A DNA stretch of 64,000 nt, taken from assembly GCF_022227765.1 (NCBI RefSeq), contig NZ_JAJMLZ010000003.1, forward strand, positions 186,001 through 250,000, read 5' to 3'. The notes under the pieces were generated by a model. The model ran no database searches. It saw nothing but the letters and a program-made list of their open reading frames with translations, and was not told where the DNA came from. Origin of the DNA: Ectothiorhodospira shaposhnikovii. Lineage in GTDB: Bacteria > Pseudomonadota > Gammaproteobacteria > Ectothiorhodospirales > Ectothiorhodospiraceae. Within the stretch, counting starts at the first letter, position 1; each line of letters begins with the position of its first letter. The position numbers and the translations under genes were made by a program. Below, piece after piece: positions 4,703 to 51,443 of the stretch.

Positions 4703-6333
4703 GCCGGGGAGCCGGACGGGGTCAGTACGGTGGGACGGCCGGCCAGTGCCGGATCGGTCCGCGGGTAGTCCAGGGTGTAATGCAGGCCCCGGCTCTCCTT
4801 TCGGCTCTGAGCGCTGCGGATGATGATTTCCGCCACTAGGGCCAGGTTGCGCAGCTCGATCAGGTCATTGGTGACGCGGAAGTTGCTGTAGTAGTCGTGG
4901 ATCTCGCCCTGCAGCAATTCAATGCGTCGTTGCGCCCGCTGCAGTCGTTTGCTGGTGCGAACGATGCCCACGTAGTCCCACATGAAGCGGCGCAGTTCTT
5001 CCCAGTTGTGGGCCACCACCACCTCCTCGTCCGAGTCGGTGACACGGCTCTCGTCCCAGGCTGGAATCCGGTCCACCGGCACCGGCTCGGGACGTTGCCG
5101 GCCCATGTCCTGGGCGGCGGAGCGGGCGAAGACCAGGCATTCCAGCAGGGAGTTGCTGGCCATGCGATTGGCGCCGTGCAGGCCCGTGCAGGCCACTTCA
5201 CCGATGGCATAGAGCCCGTCCAGATCGGTGCGGGCCGCCAGGTCGGTCATCACGCCGCCGCAGGTGTAGTGGGCGGCGGGCACCACCGGAAGGGGGTCCC
5301 GGGTCATGTCGAAGCCGTATTCCAGGCAGCGTTCATGGATGTTGGGGAAGTGGGATTTGATGAAGTCCGCCGGCTTGTGGGAGATGTCCAGATAGACGCA
5401 GTCCGCCCCCAGGCGTTTCATTTCATGGTCGATGGCCCGGGCGACGATATCCCGTGGGGCCAATTCCCCCCGGGGGTCGAAGCGTTCCATGAAAGGGGTG
5501 CCGTCGGGCAGCAGCAGTCTGCCGCCTTCGCCCCGAACCGCCTCGGAGATGAGAAAGGACTTGGCTTTGGGATGGAACAGGCAGGTGGGATGAAACTGCA
5601 TGAACTCCATGTTGGCCACCCGGCAACCGGCCCGCCAGGCCATGGCGATGCCGTCGCCAGTGGAGCCGTCCGGGTTGCTGCTGTAGAGATAGACCTTGCT
5701 GGCGCCGCCGCTGGCCAGGACCACGAAGGGTGCGGCGAAGATTTCCACCTTATGGGACTTGAGATTGAGCACATAGGCACCCAGGCAACGCCGGGGGCCC
5801 GTCAGGCCGAGCTTGTGGCTGGTGAGCAGATCCACCGCGATGTGATGTTCGAACAGCTCGATGTTGGGGTGGCGCCGGACCTGTTCCACCAGGGTGTTTT
5901 CGATGGCCTTGCCGGTGGCGTCGGCGGCGTGGACCACGCGGCGGTGGCTGTGGCCACCCTCCCGGGTCAGATGCAGTTGCACCCGGCCGTCGTCAGCCGG
6001 TTCGCGGGTGAAGGGGACGCCCAGATCCAGCAGCCATTGTATGCTTTCCGGGCCGTGCTCCACGGTATGGCGCACGGCGGCCTCGTCGCACAGGCCACCG
6101 CCGGCGTCCAGGGTGTCGCGGACATGGGCTTCCAGGGAGTCATGACGGTCCAGCACCGCGGAGACGCCGCCCTGGGCGTAATAGGTGCTGCCTTCGCTGA
6201 CGGGTCCCTTGCTCAGCACCGCCACGCGTTGTTCCGTCGCCAGGTGAAGGGCCAGGCTCAGGCCGGCGGCGCCGCTGCCGATGATGAGGACGTCCATGGA
6301 TTTGCGGACCTCCGCCTGGGACGAATCTTGCAT
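4699..6333 (-). CDS. nadB: L-aspartate oxidase
   Basis: 544 residues. FAD-binding GSGAAG lies at residues 18-23, with later motifs [35 protein letters not shown] and [15 protein letters not shown] typical of the succinate dehydrogenase/L-aspartate oxidase flavoprotein fold. It oxidises aspartate to iminoaspartate, the first step of de novo NAD synthesis. The start at 6333 has TGGAGA 8 bases upstream; the next Met (residue 14) is possible. It diverges from rpoE as nadB does from algU in Pseudomonas. A rhodanese gene overlaps its 3' end. Confidence 0.97.
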
Positions 6334-6512
6334 TGATGGTTTCTCCAGAATGGCCTCGGCCCGGGAGGGAAAGGTCGGCGGTCCCTGGCGGGATGGGCCG
6401 GCGTCCGAGCGGGGGGCTCGCTTGAGGCTGTGTCTCGATCTGAGTTATTTTGTCACGGTTTTTTGCAGTGTTACATGCACCGGGCAGACTGACAAATTGA
6501 CCTGTGCCATGA

Positions 6513-6524
6513 ATTCCCGGGAAT
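6513..6524. other. 12-bp perfect palindrome in the nadB/rpoE divergent region
   Basis: ATTCCCGGGAAT is a perfect inverted repeat with no spacer, about 180 bases upstream of nadB and 107 upstream of rpoE. Its position in a divergent regulatory region makes an operator possible, but no family of regulators is recognised from it. Confidence 0.3.
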
Positions 6525-6560
6525 GATGGGAGCATGGTGCAGTTTGGGCGTCATTTGCAA

Positions 6561-6587
6561 GAACTTAACGAGGGTTTCCATGTCCAT
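6561..6587 (+). promoter_or_regulatory. Candidate sigma-E-type autoregulatory promoter of rpoE
   Basis: GAACTT at 6561-6566 matches the sigma-E/AlgU -35 core, and after 16 bases TCCAT follows as an imperfect -10. Transcription would begin about 40 bases before the rpoE ATG at 6632. Autoregulation by sigma-E is standard for this operon; the -10 match is weak, so this is a candidate only. Confidence 0.45.
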
Positions 6588-6631
6588 CGCAGTTAGGGTA
6601 CAGGACGTGCCCTCAGAGGGGGAGTGCCCGA

Positions 6632-7207
6632 ATGGGCAATAAAGTAACCGACGAGGAGCTGGTCAGGCGTGTTCAAGCCGGAGACAAGAAGGCTTTCGAC
6701 GTACTGGTGCAGAAGTACCAGCACAAGATCGTCAACCTGGTCTCCCGCTATGTGCATGACTCTGCCACGGCGCTTGATGTGGCCCAGGAGGCCTTTATCA
6801 AGGCCTACCGGGGGCTGGCCAATTTCAGGGGCGAAAGCGCTTTCTACACCTGGCTGTACCGGATCGCCATCAATACGGCCAAGAACCATCTGGTCTCCCA
6901 GAGCCGCCGGACGCCGGACGTGGAGGTGGACGCCCAGGATGCGGAACAGATGGGGGGCGAGTCCGCCCTCAAGGAATATGCAACCCCGGAAGGGGAATTG
7001 CTGTCGGAGGAGATACGACTGGCCGTGCAGAACGCCATCAGCACGTTGCCGGACGACTTGAAGACAGCCATCACCCTGCGTGAACTGGAGGGGATGAGCT
7101 ATGAGGAGATTGCGCAGACCATGGGATGCCCCATTGGTACGGTGCGCTCCAGGATTTTCCGGGCGCGGGAAGCGATCGATCGCGTCTTGCGGCCATTGCT
7201 TGATTAA
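6632..7207 (+). CDS. rpoE: RNA polymerase sigma factor RpoE (AlgU)
   Basis: 191 residues, a typical ECF sigma factor length. Region 2 (DVLVQKYQHKIVNLVSRY... DVAQEAFIKAYRGL) and region 4 (LPDDLKTAITLRELEGMSYEEIAQTMGCPIGTVRSRIFRAREAI) are both intact. It directs transcription of envelope-stress genes and is held at the membrane by RseA, encoded immediately downstream. The operon rpoE-rseA-rseB-rseC-mucD is complete here, matching algU-mucABCD of Pseudomonas. A candidate self-promoter lies at 6561. Confidence 0.98.
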   Translation: MGNKVTDEELVRRVQAGDKKAFDVLVQKYQHKIVNLVSRYVHDSATALDVAQEAFIKAYRGLANFRGESAFYTWLYRIAINTAKNHLVSQSRRTPDVEVDAQDAEQMGGESALKEYATPEGELLSEEIRLAVQNAISTLPDDLKTAITLRELEGMSYEEIAQTMGCPIGTVRSRIFRAREAIDRVLRPLLD

Positions 7208-7233
7208 ATGTGCTTTCAAGAGCGAGACGCATC

Positions 7234-7866
7234 ATGACGACCACTAAAGAGGAACGACTCTCCGCGCTGGTGGATGACGAGGCCGAGGCCTTCGAGACCC
7301 GCCGGTTGCTGGACGAGCTGGCAAAGAACCCGGAAGATCTGGCCCGATGGGGTCGCTATCATTTGATCGGCGACGTCATGCGGGGCAATCTGGATCGTAC
7401 CGCCCCCCCCGATTTTTCCGCGCGCATCATGGCCGCCGTGGCTGAGGAGCCGCAGCTGTTGGCCTCGTCTTCCCGGACCCTGCAGGGACGTCTGCTCAAG
7501 CCGGTGGCCGGCATGGGCATGGCGGCCGCCGTGGCCGTGGCGGTCTTGGTGGGATTGCAGAACTTCACCGGTGATCCCGCCGACCCGCGCATGGAACCGG
7601 CCATGGCCGGTGCCGAGCCGGTGATCCGCGCCGCCCAGTGGGATCCTGGTCAGCGCAACGCCCTTCAGTCCATGCTCGAACCCGATGCCCGGACCGCCCA
7701 GATACAGCACTCGCCCCTGGAGCATGGCAGTCAGCAGTTCCTGCGCATCGACATGGGAGATGCCCGTTTCAGCAGTTATCTGATCAATCACGCGGAGTCA
7801 GCCGTGGGGCGGGGCCCCATGCCGCCCCATGTCCGCACGGTCGGACACGGCTTCATGGGTGATTGA
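7234..7866 (+). CDS. rseA: Sigma-E factor negative regulatory protein RseA (MucA)
   Basis: 210 residues. The N-terminal cytoplasmic domain (ERLSALVDDEAEAFETRRLLDEL... ARWGRYHLIGDVMRG) is the anti-sigma domain that clamps RpoE. A single membrane span lies around residues 88-107 (PVAGMGMAAAVAVAVLVGL), followed by a periplasmic tail that RseB would bind. ATG 7234 is preferred over a GTG at 7210 by family N-terminus. Release of sigma-E normally needs a site-1 protease and RseP; RseP is encoded at 37311, while no DegS-like gene other than mucD was seen in the window. Confidence 0.93.
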   Translation: MTTTKEERLSALVDDEAEAFETRRLLDELAKNPEDLARWGRYHLIGDVMRGNLDRTAPPDFSARIMAAVAEEPQLLASSSRTLQGRLLKPVAGMGMAAAVAVAVLVGLQNFTGDPADPRMEPAMAGAEPVIRAAQWDPGQRNALQSMLEPDARTAQIQHSPLEHGSQQFLRIDMGDARFSSYLINHAESAVGRGPMPPHVRTVGHGFMGD

Positions 7867-7870
7867 ACCC

Positions 7871-8869
7871 ATGTTGCGGCGCCTGCACCTGATGTGTGTG
7901 GTGGTGGCGCTGCTGGCCACCGCGACGGCGGCCGCCTCGGAGCAGGCGGCCCATGCGTTGCTGCAGAAGATGGCCCGGGCCGTGGATGAGCTCAACTACG
8001 AAGGCGTCTTTGTCTTTGCCCATGACCAGCGCATGGAGACCCTGCAGATCATCCATGCCCGGGACGAGCGGGGTTCACGGGAACGACTGGTGGCCCTGAC
8101 CGGGTCTCCCCGTGAAATCATCAAGGATGAAGACAGCATCATCTGCGTGCGTCCCGATGATTTGGACCCGGCTCTGTGTCTGGACCCGGGCAAGAGTTTG
8201 CTGGGCCTGCCCGGCGTGTTGCCCCTTCGCCAGGGGCTGGACGGCCTGGGCGAGAACTACCGCCTGCGCCTTGGGGAGCAACAGCGGGTTGCCGGCCTGT
8301 CCTGTCAGGAAGTGTCCATCATCCCTCGTGACCATCTTCGCTATGGCTATCAGCTCTGCATCCACGAGCCCACCGGCATGTTGCTGCAGTCCCGGCTGCT
8401 GAGCCGGGAGGGGCGCATTTTCGAGCAATTCATGTTCACCCGCATCGAATTTCCCGCCCGTGTGGCCGACGAGCGTCTGCAACCGCGCATGCGGGGGGAG
8501 GGCGTGACGGCGCGTCCCATGGAGACCCCGTCGGCCCGTACCCAGGTCATGGAGCCGGATCTCCGCTGGCGGATTGGAGAGATGCCGCCGGGATTCCAGG
8601 TTACCGGCGTCAGCAGGCGGCTCATGGCGGCCAGTCCCCATCCGGTACAGCACATGATCCTGACCGACGGATTGGCCACGGTATCCGTCTTCGTCACGCG
8701 GATGGATCGTCCGGAAGACCGCCTGCGTGGCCTGACCCGTTCCGGCGGTCTGCATGCGGTGGTACTGCCCTGGGGAGAGTATCAGGTGACGGTCCTTGGC
8801 GAGGTACCCGAGGCTACCGTGCGCCTGATTGCCGAATCGGTGTTTCATGATGGGGAGAATGCACGGTGA
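7871..8869 (+). CDS. rseB: Sigma-E regulatory protein RseB (MucB)
   Basis: 332 residues with an N-terminal signal peptide (LRRLHLMCVVVALLATATAAAS). MucB/RseB features follow: LLQKMARAVDELNYEGVFVFAHDQRMETLQIIH and RERLVALTGSPREIIKDED in the LolA-like lipid-sensing domain, then a C-terminal domain with LTDGLATVSVFVTRM. RseB binds the periplasmic tail of RseA and shields it from proteolysis until displaced by lipopolysaccharide-type signals. ATG 7871 lies 4 bases after the rseA stop. Its stop overlaps the rseC start. Confidence 0.95.
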   Translation: MLRRLHLMCVVVALLATATAAASEQAAHALLQKMARAVDELNYEGVFVFAHDQRMETLQIIHARDERGSRERLVALTGSPREIIKDEDSIICVRPDDLDPALCLDPGKSLLGLPGVLPLRQGLDGLGENYRLRLGEQQRVAGLSCQEVSIIPRDHLRYGYQLCIHEPTGMLLQSRLLSREGRIFEQFMFTRIEFPARVADERLQPRMRGEGVTARPMETPSARTQVMEPDLRWRIGEMPPGFQVTGVSRRLMAASPHPVQHMILTDGLATVSVFVTRMDRPEDRLRGLTRSGGLHAVVLPWGEYQVTVLGEVPEATVRLIAESVFHDGENAR

Positions 8870-9342
8870 TCGAAGAGACTGCCCGCGTGATTGCGGTGGA
8901 CGAGGCTGGATTTGCCTGGGTGGAAACCGAGCGCAAGACCGCCTGCGGAACCTGTTCCGTGCAGAAGGGGTGCGGCACCAGCGTGATTGCCAAACTGTTC
9001 GGACAGCGCCGCACCCAGGTGCGGGTCATTGATCCCGTCGGGGTCAGCCTGGGGGAAGAGGTCATCATCGGTCTGGATGAGTCCGCCCTGGTACGTGGTT
9101 CGCTGGCCGTCTACATCCTGCCTCTGCTGTGCATGTTGGTGTTTGCCGCCCTGGGGCAGTGGCTTTGGGGCGGGCACGGCGAGTTGCCGGTGGTGGCGGC
9201 CGGTCTGACGGGGCTGCTGGCGGGCCTGGGCGCCGTCGGCGGGTTCACCCGCCGCATCCGCCGTGACCCCCGTTATCAGCCGGTGGTGGTGCGTCGCCTC
9301 GGGCCGCCGGCGATCCGGATTCATGGTGTGCTGGCCCCCTGA
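8866..9342 (+). CDS. rseC: SoxR-reducing system / sigma-E regulatory protein RseC (MucC)
   Basis: 158 residues starting with GTG at 8866 that overlaps the rseB stop by 4 bases. The N-terminal cytoplasmic part has four cysteines in the RseC pattern (C25, C28, C34 within ACGTCSVQKGCGTS), followed by two membrane spans (GSLAVYILPLLCMLVFAALGQ and VVAAGLTGLLAGLGAVGGF). RseC modulates sigma-E and, in some bacteria, electron supply to SoxR. Only three cysteines of the cluster are obvious plus none further, so metal binding is not claimed. Confidence 0.92.
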   Translation: MIEETARVIAVDEAGFAWVETERKTACGTCSVQKGCGTSVIAKLFGQRRTQVRVIDPVGVSLGEEVIIGLDESALVRGSLAVYILPLLCMLVFAALGQWLWGGHGELPVVAAGLTGLLAGLGAVGGFTRRIRRDPRYQPVVVRRLGPPAIRIHGVLAP

Positions 9343-9403
9343 GCGCATCTCCATTTCCCGCGACCAGCGTATGGAAGCGGCCCTTTACATTCGCGAGTCC
9401 TAT

Positions 9404-10852
9404 ATGAAGACAACAAGCCAACGTCCGCATGCCTTTCTGCTGATCCTGCTTGTGTCCCTGTGCCTGGTGGTCGCAAGTCCCGTTCACGCCCGGGGGCTGC
9501 CCGAGTTCGTGCCCCTGGTGGAAGCCAATAGCGCGGCGGTGGTCAATATCAGTACTTCCCGGGCCATGGAGCTGCCCAGCGGTCATCCCCCGCTGCAGTT
9601 GCCCGAAGGTCTGCCGGAGGACGGCCCCTTCGGTGACCTGCTACGCCGCTTCTTCGGTGAGCGGGGCGGCAGCGCACCGCCGCCGAGGGGCTTTGACAGC
9701 ACCTCCCTGGGGTCCGGGTTCATCATCTCGGCGGACGGCTATGTGGTCACCAACCATCATGTCATCCAGGGCGCGGACGAGATCGAGGTCCGGCTTAGCG
9801 ACCGACGCACCTTCATTGCCGAACTGATCGGCTCCGACCCGCGTACCGATGTGGCGGTGCTGCGTATCGAGGCCCGGGATCTGCCGACCCTGACCCTGGG
9901 GGATTCCGATAGCCTGCGGGTGGGTGAGTGGGTGCTGGCCATCGGCTCGCCCTTCGGTTTTGATCACTCGGTGACGGCGGGTATTGTCAGTGCCAAGGGA
10001 CGCAACCTGCCCAGTGAGAGCTATGTGCCCTTCATCCAGACCGACGTGGCCATCAACCCGGGTAATTCCGGGGGGCCGCTGTTCAACATGAACGGCGAGG
10101 TGGTGGGGATCAACTCTCAGATCTACAGCCGTACCGGCGGCTTCATGGGGCTGTCCTTTGCCATACCCATCGAAGTGGCCATGGACGTGGTCAATCAGCT
10201 GCGGGACAAGGGGTATGTGAGCCGTGGCTGGCTGGGGGTGATCATCCAGGAGGTGACACGGGAGCTGGCGGATTCCTTCTCCATGGAGCGCCCCACCGGG
10301 GCACTGGTGGCGCGGGTCCTGCCCGACAGCCCGGCGCAGGCCGCCGGACTGCGTACCGGCGACGTGATCCTCAGTTTCAACGGCACCGAGGTGCCCCGGT
10401 CCTCGGCGCTGCCTCCCATCGTCGGACGTGCGCCCATCGACAGACCGGCCCGGGTGGAGATCCTGCGTGACGGCAAGCCCATGACCGTCGAGGTGGTGAT
10501 CGGTGAACTGCCCTCGGAAGACGAGCTGGCTCAGTCCCATGCCCAGGCTCCGACCCCGGCCCAGTCCCGCTTCAAGCCCTTCGGCATGCATCTGGAAACC
10601 GTTCCCGATGAGTTGCGGGAGCGTCTGGAACTGGCCGACGGGGGTGTACTGGTCACCGAGGTGGAGTCGGGGCCGGCCCAGCGTGCCGGCATTCGTCGGG
10701 GTGACGTGATCCTGATGATCAACAGCCATGACATCCGCAGCCTGGAACAGATGCAAGAGGTGGTGGAAGCATTGCCGCCGGGACGATCCGCCCGGGTGCT
10801 GGTACAGCGGGGGCAGGGGCCCATCTGGATGCCGCTGGATGTGCCGGAATGA
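9404..10852 (+). CDS. mucD: HtrA/DegQ-type periplasmic serine protease MucD
   Basis: 482 residues. A signal peptide (to about A29) is followed by a trypsin-like domain with H119 (TNHHV), D149 (DPRTDVAVL) and S222 (NPGNSGGPLF), then two PDZ domains (about 265-360 and 385-480; RGWLGVIIQEV begins the first). It degrades misfolded envelope proteins and in Pseudomonas restrains the AlgU response. ATG 9404 is chosen because it starts a clean signal peptide; a further in-frame Met lies at 9371. It closes the sigma-E operon; its stop overlaps the next gene by 4 bases. Confidence 0.96.
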   Translation: MKTTSQRPHAFLLILLVSLCLVVASPVHARGLPEFVPLVEANSAAVVNISTSRAMELPSGHPPLQLPEGLPEDGPFGDLLRRFFGERGGSAPPPRGFDSTSLGSGFIISADGYVVTNHHVIQGADEIEVRLSDRRTFIAELIGSDPRTDVAVLRIEARDLPTLTLGDSDSLRVGEWVLAIGSPFGFDHSVTAGIVSAKGRNLPSESYVPFIQTDVAINPGNSGGPLFNMNGEVVGINSQIYSRTGGFMGLSFAIPIEVAMDVVNQLRDKGYVSRGWLGVIIQEVTRELADSFSMERPTGALVARVLPDSPAQAAGLRTGDVILSFNGTEVPRSSALPPIVGRAPIDRPARVEILRDGKPMTVEVVIGELPSEDELAQSHAQAPTPAQSRFKPFGMHLETVPDELRERLELADGGVLVTEVESGPAQRAGIRRGDVILMINSHDIRSLEQMQEVVEALPPGRSARVLVQRGQGPIWMPLDVPE

Positions 10853-41590: not shown

Positions 41591-41605
41591 TCCGGGGCGG
41601 AAGTG

Positions 41606-42664
41606 ATGTCGGTTTCACTGAAAACACTGGCGCGGGCCATCGGCGCCGATCTGCACGGAGCCGGCATTGATGCCGGTGAACGTGTCCTGGACAGCGTGGC
41701 CCCGCTGGGCGATGCCGGTCCCGGTCAGCTGTGCTTCATGACCCATGATCGCTACCTGCCCGAGCTCCGTCGGACCCGGGCGGGAGCGGTCATCCTCAAG
41801 CCCGCGCATCTGCCCGAGTGCCCGGTGCCGGCCCTGGTCTGCGCCAATCCGCACCTGGGATTCGCCCGGGCGGCGGCCCTGTTGCATCCCGAGCCCGTAC
41901 CCGAACCCGGCATTCATGCCAGTGCCGTGGTCAGTCCTCGGGCCAGGATTCATCCCTCGGTCAGTGTGGGGCCGCAGTGTGTCGTGGCGGCGGGCGTGCA
42001 GCTGGATGCCGACGTGGTGCTGGGTCCCGGCTGTATCATCGGCGAGAATGCCCATGTGGGCGAAGGGACCCGGATGCTGGCCCGGGTGACGGTGGGTGCC
42101 CGTGTCAGGATCGGTCGGCGAGGATTGCTGCACCCCGGGGCAGTGGTGGGTTCGGAGGGGTTCGGCTTTGCGAAGGACGGCGAGGCGTGGATCCGGGTGC
42201 CGCAGGTGGGTACGGTGATCATCGGTGACGACGTGGAGGTGGGGGCCAACACGACCATCGATCGCGGTGCGCTGGAAGATACCGTGATCGAGGACGGGGT
42301 GAAACTGGACAACCTGATCCAGGTGGCCCACAACGTGCATATCGGTGCCCACACGGCCATGGCCGGGTGTGTGGGGATCGCCGGTAGTGCCCGCATCGGC
42401 AGGCGTTGCTCCATTGGCGGGGGGGTCGGCATTGCGGGCCACCTGGAAATCGCCGATGGGGTGACGGTGACGGGCATGACCCTGGTGAGCCGTTCCATCT
42501 CAGAGCCCGGTGTCTATTCCTCGGGTGTGCCGTTCTCACCGGCACGGGAATGGAATCGCAGCCTGGCGCATTTGCGGCGACTCGATACCCTGTCACGGCG
42601 CGTCAAAGTCCTGGAAGAGCGGGCATCACGCCAGGGCGCCGGGGCTGACTCTGATAACGAATAA
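41606..42664 (+). CDS. lpxD: UDP-3-O-(3-hydroxyacyl)glucosamine N-acyltransferase
   Basis: 352 residues. An N-terminal uridine-binding domain is followed by a left-handed beta helix; the catalytic histidine is H242 (NLIQVAHNVHIGAHT). It adds the second hydroxyacyl chain to the lipid A precursor. A GTG lies immediately before the ATG and either could be used. It is followed by an 86-base gap with a perfect inverted repeat, then fabZ and lpxA. Confidence 0.96.
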   Translation: MSVSLKTLARAIGADLHGAGIDAGERVLDSVAPLGDAGPGQLCFMTHDRYLPELRRTRAGAVILKPAHLPECPVPALVCANPHLGFARAAALLHPEPVPEPGIHASAVVSPRARIHPSVSVGPQCVVAAGVQLDADVVLGPGCIIGENAHVGEGTRMLARVTVGARVRIGRRGLLHPGAVVGSEGFGFAKDGEAWIRVPQVGTVIIGDDVEVGANTTIDRGALEDTVIEDGVKLDNLIQVAHNVHIGAHTAMAGCVGIAGSARIGRRCSIGGGVGIAGHLEIADGVTVTGMTLVSRSISEPGVYSSGVPFSPAREWNRSLAHLRRLDTLSRRVKVLEERASRQGAGADSDNE

Positions 42665-42751: not shown

Positions 42752-43207
42752 TTGGATTCCATGAGCATACACGAGGTGCTGCGCTACCTCCCCCATCGTT
42801 TCCCGTTTCTGATGGTGGACCGGGTGACCGATCTCAAACCCGGTGAATATCTGGAGGGCATCAAGAATGTCTCCATCAATGAACCCTATTTCCCGGGTCA
42901 TTTCCCCATCCGCCCGGTCATGCCGGGTGTCCTGATCCTGGAAGCCCTGGCTCAGGCCACGGGTCTGCTGGCCTTCAAGACCCAGGAACACCGGGGCGAG
43001 ACCGACAAGCAGCAGCTGTATCTTTTCGTGGGCATCGACGAGGCCCGTTTCCGTCGCCAGGTGGAACCGGGTGATCAGCTCCATCTGCGGGTGGAACTGC
43101 TGCGCGTGGTGAGGGGTATCTGGCGCTTCAATGCCGAGGCCAGGGTGGACGGTGAAGTGGTGGCCACCGCGACGCTCATGTGCGCCGGGAAGGATCTGGA
43201 GTCATGA
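42752..43207 (+). CDS. fabZ: 3-hydroxyacyl-[acyl-carrier-protein] dehydratase
   Basis: 151 residues with a TTG start at 42752, or 148 with ATG 42761. The AAGGA at 42739-42743 lies about 8 bases before the TTG and 17 before the ATG, so the TTG is preferred. The catalytic H50 and E64 lie in [25 protein letters not shown], within hot-dog fold. It dehydrates 3-hydroxyacyl-ACP in fatty acid synthesis and competes with LpxA/LpxD for the same substrate. It overlaps lpxA by 4 bases. Confidence 0.95.
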
Positions 43208-43995
43208 TCGATGCCCGTGCCGTTGTAGACCCGGGGGCACGCATCGAGGAAGGAGTGCAGATCGGGGCCTTTTCGATCATTGGCCCCGAGGTGAGTATCG
43301 GCAAGGGAACCTGGATCGGACCCCATGTGGTGATCACCGGCAAGACCCGTATCGGCGAGGACTGCAAGATTTATCAGTTCGCGTCCCTGGGGGAGGCGCC
43401 CCAGGATCTGGGCTACCGGGATGAGGCCACCGCCCTGGAAATCGGTGATCGCACCGTGATCAGGGAGTACGTCACCATCAGTCGCGGTACCCCCAAGGGC
43501 GGTGGCGTGACCCGGGTGGGTTCCGACAATCTGATCATGGCCTATGTCCATATCGCCCATGACTGCCACGTGGGCGATCATGTCGTCTTTTCCAACGCGG
43601 CCTCCCTGGCCGGGCATTGTCAGGTGGGGGACCGGGCCGTGCTGGGGGGGTTCACCCTGGTTCACCAGTTCTGTCGGGTGGGCTCCCATGCTTTTACCAG
43701 CATGGGTGCGGCCCTGAACCGGGATCTGCCGCCCTATTGCATGGCTTCCGGCAATTACGCCCGTGCCGTCGGCATCAACAAGATCGGGCTCCGGCGTCGC
43801 GGTTTTTCCGGGGAGACCATCCGTGCGCTGCAACGGGCATTTCGGCATCTGGTGGACGGTCGGGACCGGCAGCAGGGCCTCGAGGCCGTGGCGCCACTGG
43901 CGGAGGTGCACCCGGAAGTGGCGGATTTCGTGGCATTTGTGCGGGAAAGTCCCCGCGGCATTCTGCGCACCGATCGGCGCCGTTCCACGGACTGA
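43204..43995 (+). CDS. lpxA: Acyl-[ACP]-UDP-N-acetylglucosamine O-acyltransferase
   Basis: 263 residues. Left-handed beta helix with catalytic H119 (VHIAHDC, equivalent to H125 of E. coli). The position that sets acyl length (G173 in E. coli, M169 in Pseudomonas aeruginosa) is M167 here ([13 protein letters not shown]), which predicts selection of a C10-type hydroxyacyl chain. Given the gnnA/gnnB-like genes at 48521-50633, its sugar substrate may be UDP-GlcNAc3N, giving an amide. It starts at ATG 43204 overlapping fabZ. lpxB is not directly downstream as usual. Confidence 0.96.
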
Positions 43996-44006
43996 CCGGC
44001 ACCGCC

Positions 44007-44077
44007 TTCGCGGGCAAGGCCCGCTCCCAGGGTCACCCGTGTGAGTGTGACCCCGTGGGAGCGGCCCTGGCCGCGAA
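44007..44077. repeat. REP-like inverted pair at the lpxA / minus-block junction
   Basis: Two arms, TTCGCGGGCAAGG... (44007-44029) and its near-inverse TGGGAGCGGCCCTGG... (44056-44077), face each other across 26 bases. The sequence is of the REP type common in Pseudomonas (GCGGGCAAGCCCGC-like). It lies between the convergent lpxA and the minus-strand block and could end both transcripts. A near-identical copy of the left arm is inside recC at 59855. Confidence 0.8.
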
Positions 44078-44100
44078 TCAGCGCAGGCGCCGAGCAAACT

Positions 44101-44265
44101 TCAGGGCTCCCCGGACTCCCGTTTCAACGTCACATCCACGATTCTCACCTGCCTGATCGCCTCGATCTCATGGTCGGCGAACCACTGCTCCGCCAGCTTG
44201 CGAATGTCACCCAGACCGACCTTGGACAGGTCGATGTCCAGTTCCACGGTCACTTCCACTTTCAC
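44101..44265 (-). CDS. Small hypothetical protein, 54 residues
   Basis: 54 residues: MKVEVTVELDIDLSKVGLGD then a helix (IRKLAEQWFADHEIEAIRQ) and a final strand (VRIVDVTLKR). The alternating charged/hydrophobic pattern suggests a small alpha/beta fold, no membrane span, no known family. The start is GTG 44265 with GAGGGG about 6 bases upstream; the gene starts 10 bases after the PH-domain gene stop, so it is the last of that operon. Confidence 0.6.
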   Translation of the reverse strand: MKVEVTVELDIDLSKVGLGDIRKLAEQWFADHEIEAIRQVRIVDVTLKRESGEP

Positions 44266-44275
44266 GGCGCACCCC

Positions 44276-45142
44276 TCAGAATGAACTGGTGACCACCCGA
44301 CCGGACGGGTCCAGCATGTCACGCAAGGTTTCCGGATCTGCAATGCCGGGCAGCTTCAGACTCTGGCCACCATGGCAGATGATGCCCACCTTGCCGTAGC
44401 CGAGCAGACGACCCAGCCAGCTTCGGTAAATCCCCGCCGCCTTGATCTCGCCCAGTTCCATGACCCGGGTGCGGCGCAGCAGCGTGCCGGTCACGGTGAT
44501 CATGCGCCGATCGGTGATGGAGACCTCCGTGTTGAGAAAAATGGCCAGTGCCCGGGCCATCATGCCCGGCAACACCGCCAGGTAGATGATGGCGGCGATG
44601 ACCTCGCCCCCCAGGCCGAAGGGACCCAACACCAGCAGCAGGCACAGGGTCACGAGCTGGATCGGGGGCAGGAAGATGGCCCAGTGGGTGTCGGCCTGGA
44701 ATACCAGGTGTTCTTCCTCGTCCAGCACGGTTTGGGTTACGTCCGCGCGCCCCAGGGAAAAGGACAGGATGGCCATGATGATGGCCGGCGGCAGCAGCAG
44801 GGTGCCGGCCACCAGCAGGGTGGTCCCGAGCGGGGTGCCGAAGAAATTCACCCCGGCAAAGAGGTTGATTCCCGCCGCCACGAGCACCCCCGCCGCGGTG
44901 AAATTGAGGCGGCGTTTCCAGCGTCTTTCGTTGCGCATGCGTTCGCAGCGATGTCGGGGCCACCAGCGCACCAGCAGGTTGATGAGGGTGACGGGAAACA
45001 GAATGATGAACAGGGTCAGGGAGATCAGCGCCCCTTGTCCCAGCAGGACCATGGATCCCATGAGGCTGGCCAGGGAACTCAGGGCCAGGGTGATGGGAAT
45101 CCAGCGGGGAGATCGGGTGGTGTCCTTCGTTGTCGTACTCAA
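44276..45142 (-). CDS. PH-domain-containing membrane protein
   Basis: 288 residues with about six membrane spans in pairs (for example SSLASLMGSMVLLGQGALISLTLFIILFPVTL; FTAAGVLVAAGINLFAG; IQLVTLCLLLVLGPFGLGGEVIAAIIYLAVLPG). The C-terminus (NTEVSITDRRMITVTGTLLRRTRVMELGEIKAAG ... LLGYGKVGIICHGGQSLKLPGIADPETL) has the bacterial PH/DUF304 pattern. TTG 45142 is preferred because GGAG lies 7 bases before it; GTG 45163 is a close alternative. Function of the family is unclear. Confidence 0.75.
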   Translation of the reverse strand: MSTTTKDTTRSPRWIPITLALSSLASLMGSMVLLGQGALISLTLFIILFPVTLINLLVRWWPRHRCERMRNERRWKRRLNFTAAGVLVAAGINLFAGVNFFGTPLGTTLLVAGTLLLPPAIIMAILSFSLGRADVTQTVLDEEEHLVFQADTHWAIFLPPIQLVTLCLLLVLGPFGLGGEVIAAIIYLAVLPGMMARALAIFLNTEVSITDRRMITVTGTLLRRTRVMELGEIKAAGIYRSWLGRLLGYGKVGIICHGGQSLKLPGIADPETLRDMLDPSGRVVTSSF

Positions 45143-45231
45143 GTTGAGGCTCCAGTTAGGCACGATGGGACCCCGGACCGGGTCGAGCCTTCATTTTGCC
45201 TGATATCCGGCCCCGATGCCCATGCCCGGGA

Positions 45232-45501
45232 TCAGGAGGGAGATGGATTCTGCGTGCGCCCCTTGAGTTCCCGCACCCGCTCCACGCCCTTGCGGCGCTG
45301 GGCGTAGATCACCTGCAGTTTCTGCGCAATCTCCTCATGTTCATCGCCCGGCGGTGTCTGTTCCAGCCTGGCGGTGAGATCCCGTTCCTTGGCCTTGAGT
45401 TTCTTCAACACCTTGCGGATGGATTTGAGTTCCTCACGCTGGGCGGTCTGATCCGCGCTGAGAAAACCGGCCAGCCTAGCCAGCAGTTTTTTCGTTTTCA
45501 T
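45232..45501 (-). CDS. Hypothetical coiled-coil protein, 89 residues
   Basis: 89 residues rich in Lys, Arg, Glu and Leu. Heptad-like stretches (EELKSIRKVLKKLKAKERDLTARLEQ and HEEIAQKLQVIYAQRRKGVERVRELKG) predict two long helices. No family is recognised. Its ATG 45501 lies inside the end of the transporter gene upstream (26-base overlap), which argues for coupled translation. Confidence 0.65.
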   Translation of the reverse strand: MKTKKLLARLAGFLSADQTAQREELKSIRKVLKKLKAKERDLTARLEQTPPGDEHEEIAQKLQVIYAQRRKGVERVRELKGRTQNPSPS

Positions 45502-47338
45502 CAGTGTGCGTCCGAGTCCTGGGATTGGAATTGCCCCCGGCCATCCGCGCAATATCCTGTTCATTCAGTGCCAGCTGACCTTCGGCGGACTGTTCCGCCC
45601 GCGTGGGAGGAAGCAGCAGTGCATGGCTGGCCTCGATCAGGTTCGAGCAGATCTCGAAGGCGTAGTTCTCGTCGTTCATCATCGACGTGGCGATGGAGGA
45701 GGACAGGCGTCTGCCACGGATCAGCTCATTGAGGTCCGCCGTGAAGCTGCGGCCGGATTTCTGCACCGACAGCTTAATGGCATCCAGTGACAGTCTGGTG
45801 ACAGTCTCCGGGTCCTGGGTCCGGAGCTGGCGGATTTCCCGCAGTACCCTGGCAATCTGCAGTCGGATCACGTCATAGCGCTCCCGGATCAGCGGATTGG
45901 CGGAGAGACCGTGGCGGGAGAGGTTCTTTTGCAGGTGCTTGGTGGCCTTCACCGCCTCGACGATGTCACGACTGGCCTGTTGCAGGTCGTAGAGCTGTTC
46001 CACCGACTGTTGGGACAGCTCCCGGCCCTGGATTTCGCTGATGAAGGCGATGATGTCGCTGTGCAGGCTCTTGATCTTTGCCTCATAGACGTCGTCCACG
46101 TCCAGCGGGATGATGCGACGGGTATTTTTCACCGCGTCAGCCAGGGATTGATCCGAGTCGATCACGGAACGGCGCAGGCTGACCCCGTGGGCGATGAGGT
46201 CATGGGCGTTGTCATAGAGATGCCCCACCTCCTTGCGCAGGGCGCTGATGGCCGTGGCCGGTGTTTCCAGGGCACCGGGATAGAGATACAGGGGTTTTTC
46301 CCTGGATTTCGGGGCCGGATTCACATACTTGATCAATGCTCGCTCCAGTACGCCGGTGAAGGGGGCCAGCAGGATGACGCCCAGCAGGTTGAACAGGGTA
46401 TGGAACAGGGCCAGCTTGAGCAGGTATTCATCGTCGGCCAGCCCGATCAGGGCGCCCAGGTGGTCCACTGCCCAGGCCATCTGTCCGATGAAGACGATGG
46501 CCACGGTCGCCGTCATGACGTTGAACAGGACATGGGCAATGGCCAGGCGCTTGCCGCCCAGGTTGGCGGTCATGCCGCCGATGGCGGTGGTGATGGCACT
46601 GCCCAGATTGGCGCCGATGGCCAGGGCCAGGGCGCTGTCATAGCTGATCTGACCGGTGGCCAGGGCGGTGATGATCACCAGCAGGGTGGCGTGGCTGGAC
46701 TGCATGATCACCGTGATGAGCATGCCGATGCCGGTATAGAGCAGCACCCCCAGGATGCCGGGAATCACGTAGCCGGAGAGATCGAAGGCCCCCTGGAAGG
46801 CTTCGAAGCCTTCCTTCATGTAATGGATGCCCAGGAACAGAAAGCCTACTCCCAGGGCCAGGTAGCCGATACCCTGCAAGACCTTGGAGCGCTGCAGCAG
46901 GAGGATGACACCGACAACCAGGGCGGGCATGGCATAGCCGGCGATGTCCACTCGCAGGCCCAGGCCGGCAATCAGCCAGGCCCCGGTGGTGGTGCCCAGG
47001 TTGGCCCCCATGATGACACCGATGCCGGCCGCCAGGGTGATCATCTCGGCACTGACGAAGGAAATGGTGACCAGCGACACCAGGGTACTGGACTGCATCA
47101 GGGTGGTGCTGGTGATGCCGAAGGCGATGCTTTTCCAGAGCCGGTTGGTGGACGCCCGCAGCACCTGTTCCAGGGTGCCGCCGGTAAAGGCCTTGAAGCC
47201 CTTTTCCAGCGACAGCATGCCGAACAGGAACAGCGCCACCCCGGCGGCGATTTCCTTGAAGTCCGGACTGACCCAGAAGCCGTAACCCAGGATCAGCAGG
47301 AGCAGGGGCAGCGGGGCCTGGCGCCAGAACCGGATCAA
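45476..47338 (-). CDS. Na+/Pi cotransporter family protein (NptA-like) with C-terminal PhoU-like domain
   Basis: 620 residues. Two inverted repeats of the SLC34/NptA type each carry a QSS motif (TLMQSSTLVSLVT, about 79-91; VIMQSSHATLLVI, about 211-223) in about eight membrane spans. The last ~250 residues are helical and PhoU-like (ETPATAISALRKEVGHLYDNAHDLI ...). Such proteins couple phosphate or another anion to sodium. TTG 47338 overlaps the lpxB stop (TTGA), with GGAGG 10 bases before it, so the two are translationally coupled. No ATG start fits the N-terminus. Confidence 0.88.
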   Translation of the reverse strand: MIRFWRQAPLPLLLLILGYGFWVSPDFKEIAAGVALFLFGMLSLEKGFKAFTGGTLEQVLRASTNRLWKSIAFGITSTTLMQSSTLVSLVTISFVSAEMITLAAGIGVIMGANLGTTTGAWLIAGLGLRVDIAGYAMPALVVGVILLLQRSKVLQGIGYLALGVGFLFLGIHYMKEGFEAFQGAFDLSGYVIPGILGVLLYTGIGMLITVIMQSSHATLLVIITALATGQISYDSALALAIGANLGSAITTAIGGMTANLGGKRLAIAHVLFNVMTATVAIVFIGQMAWAVDHLGALIGLADDEYLLKLALFHTLFNLLGVILLAPFTGVLERALIKYVNPAPKSREKPLYLYPGALETPATAISALRKEVGHLYDNAHDLIAHGVSLRRSVIDSDQSLADAVKNTRRIIPLDVDDVYEAKIKSLHSDIIAFISEIQGRELSQQSVEQLYDLQQASRDIVEAVKATKHLQKNLSRHGLSANPLIRERYDVIRLQIARVLREIRQLRTQDPETVTRLSLDAIKLSVQKSGRSFTADLNELIRGRRLSSSIATSMMNDENYAFEICSNLIEASHALLLPPTRAEQSAEGQLALNEQDIARMAGGNSNPRTRTHTDENEKTAG

Positions 47339-48528
47339 GGGTGTCGCACCTCCCCGTCAACGGTGTCGAGCAGACGACCATGGTCGATCAGTTCCAGGGC
47401 CATCCTCGCCACCTTCCCGGAGCCGCCGCCTTCTCCCAGGCGTTCCCGTACCTCGCCCAGGGCATTTACCACCGAGCGGTGATAATCCTCGTCCATCAGC
47501 AGTCGCTCCACTTCCGCGCCGATGTTCTCCGCCGTGGCGGCATCCTGCACGAACTCCCGCACCACCGCGCGACCGGCGACGATATTGGCCAGGCCGATAT
47601 GGGGAATCAGGATCAGGCGGCTCAGAATGGCGTGGGTGATGGGAGAGACCCGGTAGATGATGGCCATGGGGGTCCTGAGCAGGGCCGCTTCCAGGGTGGC
47701 CGTGCCGGAGGCGATGATGAGGGCGCGACTGACCGCCATGACATCATAGGTTTGCCCGCTCACCAGCCGGATGTCCAGGGACGGGTCCAGATGGGGTGCC
47801 ACATCGCCGGCCACGTCCACGCCGGGGGCGAGGGGCATCACGAAACGGATATCGGGATGCCGTCGGCGCAGCCACCGGCAGGTTTCCATCATGATGGGCA
47901 GGTGGCGTCGCAGCTCCCCGCCACGGCTGCCGGGCAGCAACGCCAAGGGGGGATGGTCCGGGTCCAGACCCAGGTCCGCCAGGATCTTGTCCGGGGCGGC
48001 GGAGGGGTGGACCACGTCCACCAGGGGATTGCCCACATAGCGGACCGGGATGCCGTAACGCCGATAGACGTCCACCTCGAAGGGAAACAGCACGGCCATG
48101 GCATCGATCACCCGGCCGATGCGTTTCACCCGATGGGGGCGCCAGGCCCAGATCTGGGGGCTGACGTAAAACAGCACCCGGATGCCCAGGGCCTTGGCGG
48201 CCCTGGCCAGACGCAGGTTGAATTCCACGTAGTCCACCAGCACCAGCAGGTCCGGCGGGTCCGACCGCAGATGTTGCTTGAGGGTTTCCAGGGCCCGGCG
48301 GATATCCCGGTACTGGGCGATCACCTCCCACAGGCCCACCACCGCCAGACGTCCGGCATCCACGATCAGTTCCACCCCGGCCTCGCGCATGGCGCCGCAG
48401 CCCATGCCGGTATAGCGATTGCCGGGACGCAGGCCTTCCATGGCCCGGACCATGTTGGCGGCATGCAGGTCGCCGGAGACTTCGCCGGCGACAACCATCA
48501 CATGCAGCGGTGTGTTCGAATCAGTCAA
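47335..48528 (-). CDS. lpxB: Lipid-A-disaccharide synthase
   Basis: 397 residues. The start MTDSNTPLHVMVVAGEVSGDLHAANMV matches LpxB (E. coli MTEQRPLTIALVAGETSGD), fixing the TTG at 48528 rather than the longer upstream frame. LLPGSRGGELRRHLP and SGTATLEAALLRTPM are family motifs of this GT-B glycosyltransferase. It joins UDP-diacylglucosamine to lipid X to give the lipid A disaccharide. It overlaps the aminotransferase stop by 8 bases and the Na/Pi-type transporter start by 4 bases. Confidence 0.95.
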   Translation of the reverse strand: MTDSNTPLHVMVVAGEVSGDLHAANMVRAMEGLRPGNRYTGMGCGAMREAGVELIVDAGRLAVVGLWEVIAQYRDIRRALETLKQHLRSDPPDLLVLVDYVEFNLRLARAAKALGIRVLFYVSPQIWAWRPHRVKRIGRVIDAMAVLFPFEVDVYRRYGIPVRYVGNPLVDVVHPSAAPDKILADLGLDPDHPPLALLPGSRGGELRRHLPIMMETCRWLRRRHPDIRFVMPLAPGVDVAGDVAPHLDPSLDIRLVSGQTYDVMAVSRALIIASGTATLEAALLRTPMAIIYRVSPITHAILSRLILIPHIGLANIVAGRAVVREFVQDAATAENIGAEVERLLMDEDYHRSVVNALGEVRERLGEGGGSGKVARMALELIDHGRLLDTVDGEVRHP

Positions 48529-49615
48529 GGGCCCCCCGGATGATATCGGTGATCCGCACCAGATCCTCGTCACGGATCTCGGGATAGATGGGCAGGGACA
48601 GGCAGCGCTCGGTGACGGATTCGGTCACCGGCAGGTGGATCTGGGCGCAGCTATCGCCGAAGGCCTTCTGGCGATGCAGGGGGATGGGGTAGTACACGGC
48701 GCAGGCGATCCCGGCCTGCTGCAGGGCCTGCATGACGGCGTCCCGGCGGTCCGTTAGCAGGGTGTATTGATGAAACACGTGCACACCCAGGCCGTCCTCG
48801 AAGGGCGTGGTCACCGGTGTATCGGCCAGCAGTGCGTTGTAGCGGTGGGCGGCCCGGCGCCGTTCCTGGTTGAAGCGGTCGATGTGCTTGAGCTTGACCC
48901 GCAGGATGGCGGCCTGGATCTCGTCCAGGCGACTGTTGTAGCCGATGATGTCATGGTGATAGCGCACCCGGCTGCCGTGGTTTCTCAGGGTCCGTAACTG
49001 GTCGGCGTGCGCATCGGAACTGGTGGTGATCAGGCCGCCGTCACCGTAGCAACCCAGGTTCTTGCTGGGGAAGAAGCTGAAACAGCCGAAGGCGCCGGTG
49101 GTGCCGGTCTGGGCGCTGTTCACGGTGGCGCCGAAGGACTGGGCGCAGTCCTCCACCAGGATCAGGTCATGGGCCTTGCACAGGGCCTGGAGCCGGGGCA
49201 GGTCCGCCGGCTGTCCGAACAGGTGAACCGGCATGATGGCCCGGGTGCGTTCGTTGATGGCCGCCTCCACCTGGGCCACGTCGATATTGAAGGTGCGCGG
49301 ATCGATGTCCACGAACACCGGCACGGCCCCCACATAGCGGATGGCCTCGGCGGTGGCGATGAAGGTGAAGGCGGTGGTGATGACCTCATCCCCCTCGCCG
49401 ATACCGGCGGCGGCCAGGGCCAGATGCAGGGCATCGGTGCCGGAGGCGCAGGTGATGGCATGGGGCGTGCCCAGGTAGTCGGCCAGTTCCTGCTCCAGGC
49501 TCTGCACGTTGGGGCCCAGGATGAACTGGGTGTTTTCCAGGACCTGGGCGATTCCCGCGTCGATCTCGTCCTTCAACTGGTGGTACTGGGTCTTCAGGTC
49601 GACCATTGGAATCAT
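48521..49615 (-). CDS. gnnB: DegT/DnrJ/EryC1 aminotransferase, probable GnnB (UDP-3-keto-GlcNAc transaminase)
   Basis: 364 residues. Sugar aminotransferase fold: CASGTDALHLALAAAGIG (PLP phosphate), VEDCAQSFGA, and the PLP lysine K185 in GCFSFFPSKNLGCYGDGGLI. ATG 49615 (MIPMVDLKTQYHQLKDEID) is the family start. Next to lpxB and an oxidoreductase (49671-50633), the closest known case is GnnB of Acidithiobacillus ferrooxidans, which makes UDP-GlcNAc3N for lipid A. A WbpE-type role in O-antigen synthesis is the main alternative; context favours GnnB. Assignment of the symbol is inferred. Confidence 0.75.
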   Translation of the reverse strand: MIPMVDLKTQYHQLKDEIDAGIAQVLENTQFILGPNVQSLEQELADYLGTPHAITCASGTDALHLALAAAGIGEGDEVITTAFTFIATAEAIRYVGAVPVFVDIDPRTFNIDVAQVEAAINERTRAIMPVHLFGQPADLPRLQALCKAHDLILVEDCAQSFGATVNSAQTGTTGAFGCFSFFPSKNLGCYGDGGLITTSSDAHADQLRTLRNHGSRVRYHHDIIGYNSRLDEIQAAILRVKLKHIDRFNQERRRAAHRYNALLADTPVTTPFEDGLGVHVFHQYTLLTDRRDAVMQALQQAGIACAVYYPIPLHRQKAFGDSCAQIHLPVTESVTERCLSLPIYPEIRDEDLVRITDIIRGALD

Positions 49616-49670
49616 GGTGTGATTTTTCCTTGCTTGAATGAATACGGTCTGTGCGGGAAGGGGGAGGGCG

Positions 49671-50633
49671 TCAATCGCGCCGGTCGCGCATGGGTGACCC
49701 CTGTCGGACCAGTTCGCTGATGCGGATGGCCGTTTCCAGGGCGCGCTGGCCGTCCTCGCCGGAGACCACCACCGGGGTGCCCTGCTGGATCGCGTCCAGG
49801 AAGGCGATGATCTCCGCCTTGAGGGCATCGCCCTCCTCGAAGAAGCTTTCCTCGCTGATGACCTCGGGGATGCCCGGGAACATCTCCTTGTCGCCCAGTC
49901 GATGCACCGACAACCCCCGGTTCTGGAAATCCACCGAGACATAGGCATTTTTCTGGAAGATGCGCATCTTGCGCTCGGTCTTGAGGCTGACCCGGCTGGA
50001 GGTGACATTGGCCACGCAGCCGCTTTCGAACTCGATGCGGGCGTTGGCGATGTCGATGGCGTCGGACAGGACCCGGGCGCCGCTGGCGGCGAGGGATTTC
50101 ACCGGCGAGCGTACCATGTCCAGGATGATGTCGATGTCATGGATCATCAGGTCCAGCACCACGTTCACATCCGTGGCCCGGGGCTTGAAGGGGGCCAGGC
50201 GGTGGGATTCGATGAACAGGGGTTCGCCGCGTCGATCCGCCAGATCCATCAGGGCGGCGTTGAAGCGCTCCAGGTGTCCCACCTGCAGGATCACGCCCCG
50301 TTCCCGGGCCAGCCGGTTGAGGGCGGCGGCTTCCTCCACGGTGGAGGTGATGGGCTTTTCCACCAGCACGTGGGTGCCGTGTTCCAGGAAATCCTGGGCC
50401 ACGGGAAAGTGCAGGGTGGTGGGCACGGCAATGCTGACGGCATCCACCTGGCCAAGCAGTTCGCGGTAGTCGGTGACGGCGCGACATCCGCATTGTTCGG
50501 CCACGGCGGCGGCGGTCTCGGCACTGGCGTCGGCCACCGCCACCAGCTCTGCATTGGGAAGGGCGGCGTATTTCTGGGCGTGGAACTTGCCAAGATAGCC
50601 GACGCCGATCACGGCGCATCGTGTGGAGGTCAT
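49671..50633 (-). CDS. gnnA: Gfo/Idh/MocA oxidoreductase, probable GnnA (UDP-GlcNAc 3-dehydrogenase)
   Basis: 320 residues. Rossmann GVGYLG (residues 10-15) and the EKP motif (E92-K93-P94, VEKPITS) of the Gfo/Idh family, then [12 protein letters not shown] in the substrate domain. It would oxidise the 3-OH of UDP-GlcNAc with NAD+, giving the 3-keto sugar that GnnB aminates. ATG 50633 gives the standard N-terminus [17 protein letters not shown]. It heads the minus-strand operon and diverges from rnhB. The substrate is inferred from context. Confidence 0.75.
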
Positions 50634-50695
50634 GGGCGGTCCCGGTGGCTTGGTGAGCGGCGCGGCACGGGCCGGTGGCCCTGATGAGGTGCGCC

Positions 50696-50724
50696 TTGAT
50701 AGCATGTCGTGCCTTCATTTTACT
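50696..50724 (+). promoter_or_regulatory. Candidate promoter of rnhB
   Basis: TTGATA (50696-50701), 17-bp spacer, TTTACT (50719-50724). Transcription would start about 18 bases before the rnhB ATG at 50749. The region also must hold a promoter for gnnA on the other strand; TAAAAT on the minus strand at 50717-50722 is a weak candidate. Confidence 0.45.
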
Positions 50725-50748
50725 CCATGCATGGTGGGAACGACATCA

Positions 50749-51354
50749 ATGACGCTTGATCCGGTGAACCTGGCCCAGGGGCCTGACGTGGCGGGTGTGG
50801 ACGAAGTGGGCCGTGGTCCGCTGGCCGGCCCGGTGGTGGCGGCGGCGGTGATCCTGGATCCCGCCCGTCCCATCGAAGGATTGAAGGATTCCAAGGCCCT
50901 GAGTCCGGCCCGGCGCGAGGCCCTGGATGCACTGATCCGGGAACGGGCCCTGGCCTGGTCCATTGCGGTCTGCGGCCCGGCGGAGATTGATGCGCTGAAC
51001 ATCCTCCAGGCCAGCCTGCTGGCCATGCGTCGGGCGGTGGAGACCCTTGCCGTCGCGCCGGCCCTGGCTTTGGTGGACGGCAATCGCTGTCCGGAAGCGA
51101 TGCCCTGTCCGGCCCGGGCGGTGGTGGGGGGGGACAGGACCGTGGCGGCCATCAGCGCGGCGTCCATCATCGCCAAGGTCCATCGGGATGCCCTGATGGT
51201 GGCCCTGGATGCCGAGCATCCCGGCTACGGGCTGGCGGGTCACAAGGGTTATCCCACTCCCGTGCATCTGGAAGCCCTGACCCGCCTGGGGCCGAGCCCC
51301 TGTCACCGGATGAGCTTTGCTCCGGTACGGCGGGCGGCCTGCCAGGCGTCCTGA
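50749..51354 (+). CDS. rnhB: Ribonuclease HII
   Basis: 201 residues. [23 protein letters not shown] holds the catalytic DEVGRGP motif, and [12 protein letters not shown] and [19 protein letters not shown] are conserved. It removes RNA from RNA-DNA hybrids and single ribonucleotides. ATG 50749 is set by GGGAA upstream; an in-frame ATG at 50731 is possible. In E. coli it follows lpxB; here lpxB is on the opposite strand 2 kb away. Confidence 0.95.
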
Positions 51355-51361
51355 ATCCGTT

Positions 51362-51381
51362 ATTCCCGCGCAAGCGGGAAT
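51362..51381. repeat. Single ATTCCC-N8-GGGAAT element
   Basis: The 20-bp palindrome ATTCCCGCGCAAGCGGGAAT is identical, base for base, to the core at 14487-14506. It lies 7 bases after the rnhB stop and 109 bases before dnaE, without the second arm. Confidence 0.85.
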
Positions 51382-51443
51382 CCATCGGCCGGTCACGGAG
51401 TGAAGCATCCTGGTCGGAAATACCTTTAACGCCCTTCCCCTGC

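Follow-up and report, generated by a model that had tools for sequence, protein, structure and literature searches.

A gnnA-gnnB-lpxB block of Ectothiorhodospira shaposhnikovii predicted to direct the synthesis of amide-linked lipid A

The stretch of DNA analyzed here (G000:C22:186001-250000, 64,000 nucleotides, hereafter the window) belongs to the 3.34-Mb genome of the purple sulfur bacterium Ectothiorhodospira shaposhnikovii and carries three adjacent genes, gnnA, gnnB and lpxB. They form a block that lies inverted between lpxA and rnhB, on the strand opposite to lpxA. GnnA and GnnB very probably make UDP-GlcNAc3N, the 3-amino derivative of UDP-N-acetylglucosamine (UDP-GlcNAc), from which the enzymes LpxA to LpxB would then build a lipid A with amide-linked chains at positions 2, 3, 2' and 3'. 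The UDP-GlcNAc3N pathway is already known; the newer part is the gene arrangement, together with matching changes in the neighboring enzymes. The genes concerned are:

49671..50633, minus strand: gnnA, Gfo/Idh/MocA oxidoreductase (ATG start, 320 residues, no internal stops)
48521..49615, minus strand: gnnB, DegT-type pyridoxal phosphate (PLP) aminotransferase (ATG start, 364 residues, no internal stops)
47335..48528, minus strand: lpxB, lipid A disaccharide synthase of the module type described below (TTG start, 397 residues, no internal stops)
43204..43995, plus strand: lpxA, UDP-sugar acyltransferase (NF003657, 350.8 bits, cut-off 226)

In the proposed route, GnnA would oxidize the 3-hydroxyl of UDP-GlcNAc with NAD, GnnB would aminate the product in a PLP-dependent reaction to UDP-GlcNAc3N, and the single LpxA would put a 3-hydroxyacyl chain onto the 3-amine. 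LpxC, LpxD and LpxH or LpxI (LpxC, LpxH and LpxI being assumed) would carry the acylated product onward, and the adjacent LpxB would join two units into the backbone. We infer these substrates and cofactors, a flux through the route, and a backbone in which most or all units would be 2,3-diamino-2,3-dideoxyglucose (GlcN3N).

The oxidoreductase belongs to the Pfam family GFO_IDH_MocA (6.1e-34) and carries the motif EKP at residues 92-94. Its sole full-length close match among solved structures is 7bvj (9e-71 over residues 4-307, the next-best match reaching 1.2e-19), and identity to the printed part of 7bvj is 44% over 302 residues. This entry, titled 'Oxidoreductase, NAD-binding' in the database listing, is presumably the GnnA of Acidithiobacillus ferrooxidans. 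The entry 3q2k, which we take to be WlbA, aligns with residues 5-129 only, at 1.3e-8, and WbpB/WlbA proteins were rejected as the closest kin of the oxidoreductase on the basis of this search, made without a tree. The genome holds one GnnA match at E<=1e-20. These results support the prediction that the gnnA product is an NAD-dependent UDP-GlcNAc 3-dehydrogenase.

The aminotransferase falls into the Pfam family DegT_DnrJ_EryC1 (1.5e-129), with the PLP lysine at K185, within an SKN motif (residues 184-186). Its nearest PDB entries are 7b0d (3.6e-117) and then WbpE (1.4e-99). WbpB and WbpE of Pseudomonas aeruginosa share the protein families and the C3 chemistry of the pair, the substrate of WbpB being the uronic acid UDP-GlcNAcA. 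In a tree of 111 rows, made up of gnnA-linked and WbpE-type enzymes plus 7b0d and leaving the A. ferrooxidans GnnB outside the set, the window protein and 78 gnnA-linked rows (77 others and the genome's own copy, L113) stand apart from 31 WbpE-type rows, with a single label change between the two groups and a support of 100. The WbpE-type assignment, which the initial annotation had listed as counting against its own reading, is thus ruled out by this tree, and 7b0d, assigned to neither group, lands on the gnnB side. Similarity to WbpE was the criterion for choosing the WbpE-type rows and gnnA linkage that for the gnnB rows, whose placement was therefore not predetermined by the selection; 79 of the 138 gnnB rows found were used, after exclusion of loci below L033, short rows, rows without gnnA and most of L048-L087. 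At E<=0.001 the genome holds one full-length GnnB match, the only other match being 33% identical over residues 51-128. The gnnB product is therefore supported as a predicted UDP-3-keto-GlcNAc aminotransferase making UDP-GlcNAc3N. Read from the open frames, the coordinates, the minus-strand order, EKP 92-94 and K185 agree with the initial annotation of this region, and its assignment of the pair to GnnA, GnnB and lipid A is supported by the 7bvj match, the GnnB tree and the recurrence of the block.

The occurrence of the block was analyzed in 80 named loci (the best 80 of at least 579 candidates) and in 60 sampled gnnA loci. Among the named loci 62 contain gnnB, and 44 both gnnB and lpxB; the corresponding counts in the sampled set are 44 and 32, and in the remaining loci gnnB or lpxB was not detected within the fetched stretch or under the thresholds used. 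Where all three genes are present, the one-strand order gnnA>gnnB>lpxB is found in 42/44 named and 30/32 sampled loci. Wherever seen, rnhB is divergent upstream of the ordered block in 16/16 named and 23/25 sampled loci, and lpxA is convergent downstream in 13/18 and 16/19, respectively. Since the same order recurs in both sets, the arrangement in the window is not due to chance. The inverted layout is common among related genomes, in most cases together with an LpxB of a separate lineage. No symporter or PH-domain gene separates lpxB from lpxA in Thioalkalivibrio sulfidiphilus (L035), where the two genes face each other directly. Forward orders also occur, for instance in the sampled loci L173 and L159 and in the Desulfuromonadales-type records L093, L095, L105 and L106, and in L091 and L098 gnnAB lies beside a forward lpxA-lpxB-rnhB run. 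In L173 the order is lpxA-gnnA-gnnB-lpxB followed by rnhB, its LpxB branches beside the canonical group and its GnnA is 57% identical to 7bvj. No earlier description of the LpxB block was found in the open-licence literature, including the available part of PMC3087551.

GnnA matches at E<=1e-20 are present in 61 of 77 relatives, the own genome included (one of them, G049, with a weak 30% match), and in 46 of the 47 genomes of the window's family, again with the own genome; the sole exception, G044, is 67% complete. The closest named record among the matches listed is Ectothiorhodospira magna, with a GnnA 98% identical.

Loci with gnnA and no gnnB in the fetched stretch amount to 16 of the 60 sampled and 18 of the 80 named ones, some of them cut by contig ends and including the Legionella loci L090, L100 and L111. 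Fifteen of the 16 sampled genomes were checked (L120, L123, L124, L132, L143, L146, L147, L148, L151, L153, L155, L156, L157, L163 and L164; not L144). Three have a 61-67% identical gnnB elsewhere, beside lpxB, ten have only relatives of 43-48% identity, seven of these in the WbpE-type set, and two have no gnnB relative at E<=1e-60. In such genomes a WbpE-type enzyme may have assumed the amination.

The LpxB of the window, the only match in its genome at E<=0.001, is recognized by Pfam LpxB (6.5e-89) and TIGR00215 (283.1 bits, cut-off 190.25). A tree was built from 142 labelled rows plus the window, retained from 171 by length, linkage and duplicate filtering and including L001, the window's own gene. 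Linkage to gnn genes required 6 label changes on this tree, against 42.4 when labels were shuffled. Over shared loci, more changes were needed by LpxD (19 versus 6 for LpxB, n=83; shuffled mean for LpxD 26.1, so that LpxD is itself slightly clustered by label), RnhB (20 versus 3, n=82), FabZ (13 versus 6, n=90) and LpxA (9 versus 6, n=93), which means that species history cannot by itself account for the LpxB split. Repeats with a mixture model and with FastTree gave 6 and 6 changes for LpxB and 19 and 18 for LpxD. Both the 142-row tree and the shared-locus comparisons left out gnn-lacking loci with lpxB not near lpxA, and treated L091, L098 and L145, where gnnAB lies beside a forward lpxB, as negative, a choice that favors the LpxB result; L145 counts as positive in the type counts of the enlarged sample. 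That sample added 20 rows whose genomes lack a GnnA match, chosen because their LpxB was window-like or unlinked, and 20 rows from genomes with a GnnA match, chosen for an lpxB absent from the first set, and required 16 changes against 56.9 shuffled (182 labelled rows).

Six residues were used to call the LpxB type, selected from the first tree's own groups, and the window protein has the module-type state at all of them (H22, Y100, A108, A111, Q125, A145). Since the groups were taken from the tree, the contrast between the 85 module-type and 44 canonical sequences, which omits five linked rows outside the main group (L105, L106, L096, L173, L121), is descriptive: column 22 is H in 74/85 versus L in 43/44; column 100, Y in 81/85 versus A in 40/44; column 108, A in 85/85 versus E in 41/44; column 111, A in 84/85 versus L in 41/44; column 125, Q in 85/85 versus S in 35/44; and column 145, A in 83/85 versus L in 44/44. 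Ten further columns also separate the two types. The E. coli enzyme (5w8s, 5w8n) resembles the window LpxB over residues 5-360 (5.4e-60), its D98 aligning with D99, and differs in having L21, A99, E107, L110, S124 and L144 at the module-type positions. According to the available part of PMC5785501, E. coli D98 is the predicted base and V125 lies in a proposed lipid groove; A99 adjoins the former and S124 the latter.

Eight genomes without a GnnA match at E<=1e-40 carry a module-type lpxB (L183, L189, L192, L196, L198, L202, L215, L220), in all cases on the strand opposite to lpxA. At E<=1e-5, GnnA was not found in G090, G121, G317, G158 and G247, and only full-length relatives of 28-30% identity were found in G255, G324 and G093. 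In L220 a 41% identical aminotransferase lies between rnhB and lpxB.

The single LpxA of the genome (one match at E<=1e-30) keeps His122, His125, His144 and His160, and has G70 and I194 in place of E. coli K76 and E200, two residues which we take to have functional roles in the E. coli enzyme. LpxA sequences linked to gnn genes, drawn from named and sampled loci together and including Desulfuromonadales (57 labelled, 54 used after a length filter, 53 distinct), were compared with 60 from gammaproteobacterial genomes without a GnnA match at E<=1e-40, by Fisher tests with no correction for relatedness or for how many columns were compared. K is present at position 76 in 39/54 gnn-linked sequences versus 60/60 of the others, E at 200 in 19/54 versus 52/60, Q104 in 7/54 versus 47/60, and W at 116 in 12/54 versus 49/60. 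Both K76 and E200 are lost in 14 of the 54 and in none of the 60; the pair is also lost in the window and in 3hsq, presumably the UDP-GlcNAc3N-selective LpxA of Leptospira interrogans, and its loss is proposed here as a candidate marker for UDP-GlcNAc3N use. Like the window LpxA, 3hsq carries G at position 76 and a hydrophobic amino acid at position 200; its overall identity to the window protein is 38.1%, that of E. coli LpxA 48.6%. In genomes that lack a GnnA match and have a scored LpxB, loss of E200 affects 5/8 with module-type versus 3/41 with canonical LpxB.

In four loci (L099, L119, L128, L158) an LpxA beside gnnAB, 39-43% identical to that of the window, is without K76 and E200. Each of the three sampled genomes concerned (G157, G103, G088) contains two LpxA matches, as would be expected if one copy were reserved for GlcN3N.

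Several points weigh against the proposed pathway and its markers. Neither the oxidoreductase (best NF040723, UDP-N-acetylglucosamine 3-dehydrogenase, 213 of 450 bits) nor the aminotransferase (best TIGR03588, PseC, 273.2 of 423.5 bits) reaches any NCBIfam cut-off, equivalog models included, and the open-licence literature yielded neither a lipid A analysis nor an enzyme assay for this organism; 2,3-diaminoglucose has reportedly been sought in purple sulfur bacteria. K76 is retained in most gnn-linked LpxA, which shows that linkage does not require its loss. Correcting for relatedness leaves 2 to 5 independent pairs, on starred branches, too few for a sign test and for an association of LpxA with gnn genes to be shown; almost all of the few that differ do so in the expected direction. 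Physical linkage alone could align the history of LpxB with that of gnnAB. In the enlarged sample, chosen to be adverse, and with the named loci set aside, rows from genomes with a GnnA match comprise 47 module-type and 11 canonical LpxB, and those from genomes without one 20 and 49, respectively; as the sample is not random, the odds ratio of 10.5 is only indicative. With module-type LpxB in 20/69 rows from genomes without a GnnA match and canonical LpxB in 11/58 from genomes with one, LpxB type was discarded as a strict marker of GlcN3N.

An alternative with some standing, although we consider it doubtful, is a mixed backbone, in which LpxA would take both UDP-GlcNAc and UDP-GlcNAc3N and supply would set the ratio of glucosamine (GlcN) to GlcN3N. 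The E. coli LpxA is not known to discriminate, hybrid backbones occur in Campylobacter, and the 39 gnn-linked LpxA with K76 fit such a scheme; the absence of both K76 and E200 from the window LpxA, as in 3hsq, and the presence of only one LpxA in the genome speak against it here. Being a variant of the amide-linked pathway rather than its opposite, it shares part of the confidence given to the latter. A more distant alternative, very improbable, is that the product of the pair is a diamino sugar, acetylated or not, destined for O-antigen, capsule or glycoprotein, as with WbpB/WbpE, and that the genes adjoin lpxB for other reasons. Both protein families do occur in such sugar pathways and WbpE aligns well with GnnB, but the tree separates GnnB from the WbpE-type enzymes, the pair recurs in a block with lpxB, and no O-antigen enzyme was identified among the neighbors, the rest of the window and genome not having been searched.

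The initial annotation had further suggested that a base-resistant lipid A would be useful at high pH, and maintenance of the block because amide-linked chains withstand base hydrolysis in soda lakes is a related explanation. Amides are more stable to base than esters. In the available part of PMC8877833, phototrophic Ectothiorhodospiraceae are said to prefer alkaline, saline soda lakes. GnnA, nonetheless, has matches at E<=1e-40 in 98 of the 281 gammaproteobacterial genomes searched, counted without habitat scoring, and records of Methylomonas, Legionella and Geobacter are among its named carriers; on these grounds the high-pH advantage is unsupported. A. ferrooxidans, moreover, is an acidophile, and we regard the soda-lake explanation as unlikely.

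Compared with the order lpxA-gnnA-gnnB-lpxB, which the initial annotation gave for A. ferrooxidans and which we assume to be correct, the pair in the window comprises the same two families beside lipid A genes (GnnA 44% identical to 7bvj). The placement between lpxA and lpxB expected from that species does not hold here, the block being inverted and its LpxB of the module type. The function of A. ferrooxidans GnnA and GnnB is described in PMC8036547, as far as that source was available, and the same functions are assigned to gnnA and gnnB of rhizobia and relatives in the available parts of PMC5644692 and PMC7663294. According to the same part of PMC5644692, the pair of Phyllobacterium, unlike the block of the window, is apart from lpxA, lpxB and lpxD, and in M. 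loti gnnA and gnnB are also separated from each other.

A tentative and rather improbable scenario for these patterns is that gnnA, gnnB and lpxB form an exchangeable block that took the place of the resident lpxB and brought an LpxB tuned to fully amide-linked substrates (H22, Y100 and Q125 around the active site), after which the resident LpxA would have been retuned by loss of K76 and E200. If so, GlcN3N lipid A could be predicted in part from the sequences of LpxB and LpxA. Provided that the block and the matching residues of LpxA and LpxB are confirmed, sequence alone could help to tell which of the many gnnA-carrying Gram-negative genomes make amide-linked lipid A. Lipid A chemistry is thought to influence outer-membrane sealing and sensing.

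The minus-strand run continues beyond lpxB with two further genes, and is flanked on the plus strand by lpxD-fabZ-lpxA at one end and rnhB-dnaE-accA at the other:

45476..47338, minus strand: Na/Pi symporter (NF037997, 137.2 bits, cut-off 50)
44276..45163, minus strand: bPH_2 PH-domain protein at the block's end (PF03703, 38.4 bits)
42752..43207, plus strand: fabZ of the lpxD-fabZ-lpxA run (open frame and place, start approximate; same place in relatives)
41603..42664, plus strand: lpxD (open frame and place, start approximate; same place in relatives)
50749..51354, plus strand: rnhB, divergent from gnnA (open frame; same place beside gnnA in relatives)

The names fabZ, lpxD and rnhB were given from sequence and position, without a family scan, and the rnhB start (ATG at 50749) was picked from several in frame. 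Both the symporter and the bPH_2 gene are present in L033 and L036; the former was not found in E. mobilis (L037) or T. sulfidiphilus (L035), the latter is present in L037 and was not found in L035. The symporter is not a conserved part of the block.

A scan of 43900-51400 for sigma-70-like promoters returned 0 sites, with 1.1 expected by chance, and is thus uninformative either way on a single transcript. The overlap of the aminotransferase gene with lpxB, noted initially, amounts to 8 bases given the TTG start of lpxB (an in-frame GTG at 48573 is an alternative), gnnA and gnnB are 55 bases apart, and the symporter start overlaps the lpxB end by 4 bases, a spacing that fits one transcript. 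In one related locus, L198, an open frame of 1960 residues (4067-9949) lies between lpxA and lpxB, and by eye its start is kinase-like and its end histidine-kinase-like.

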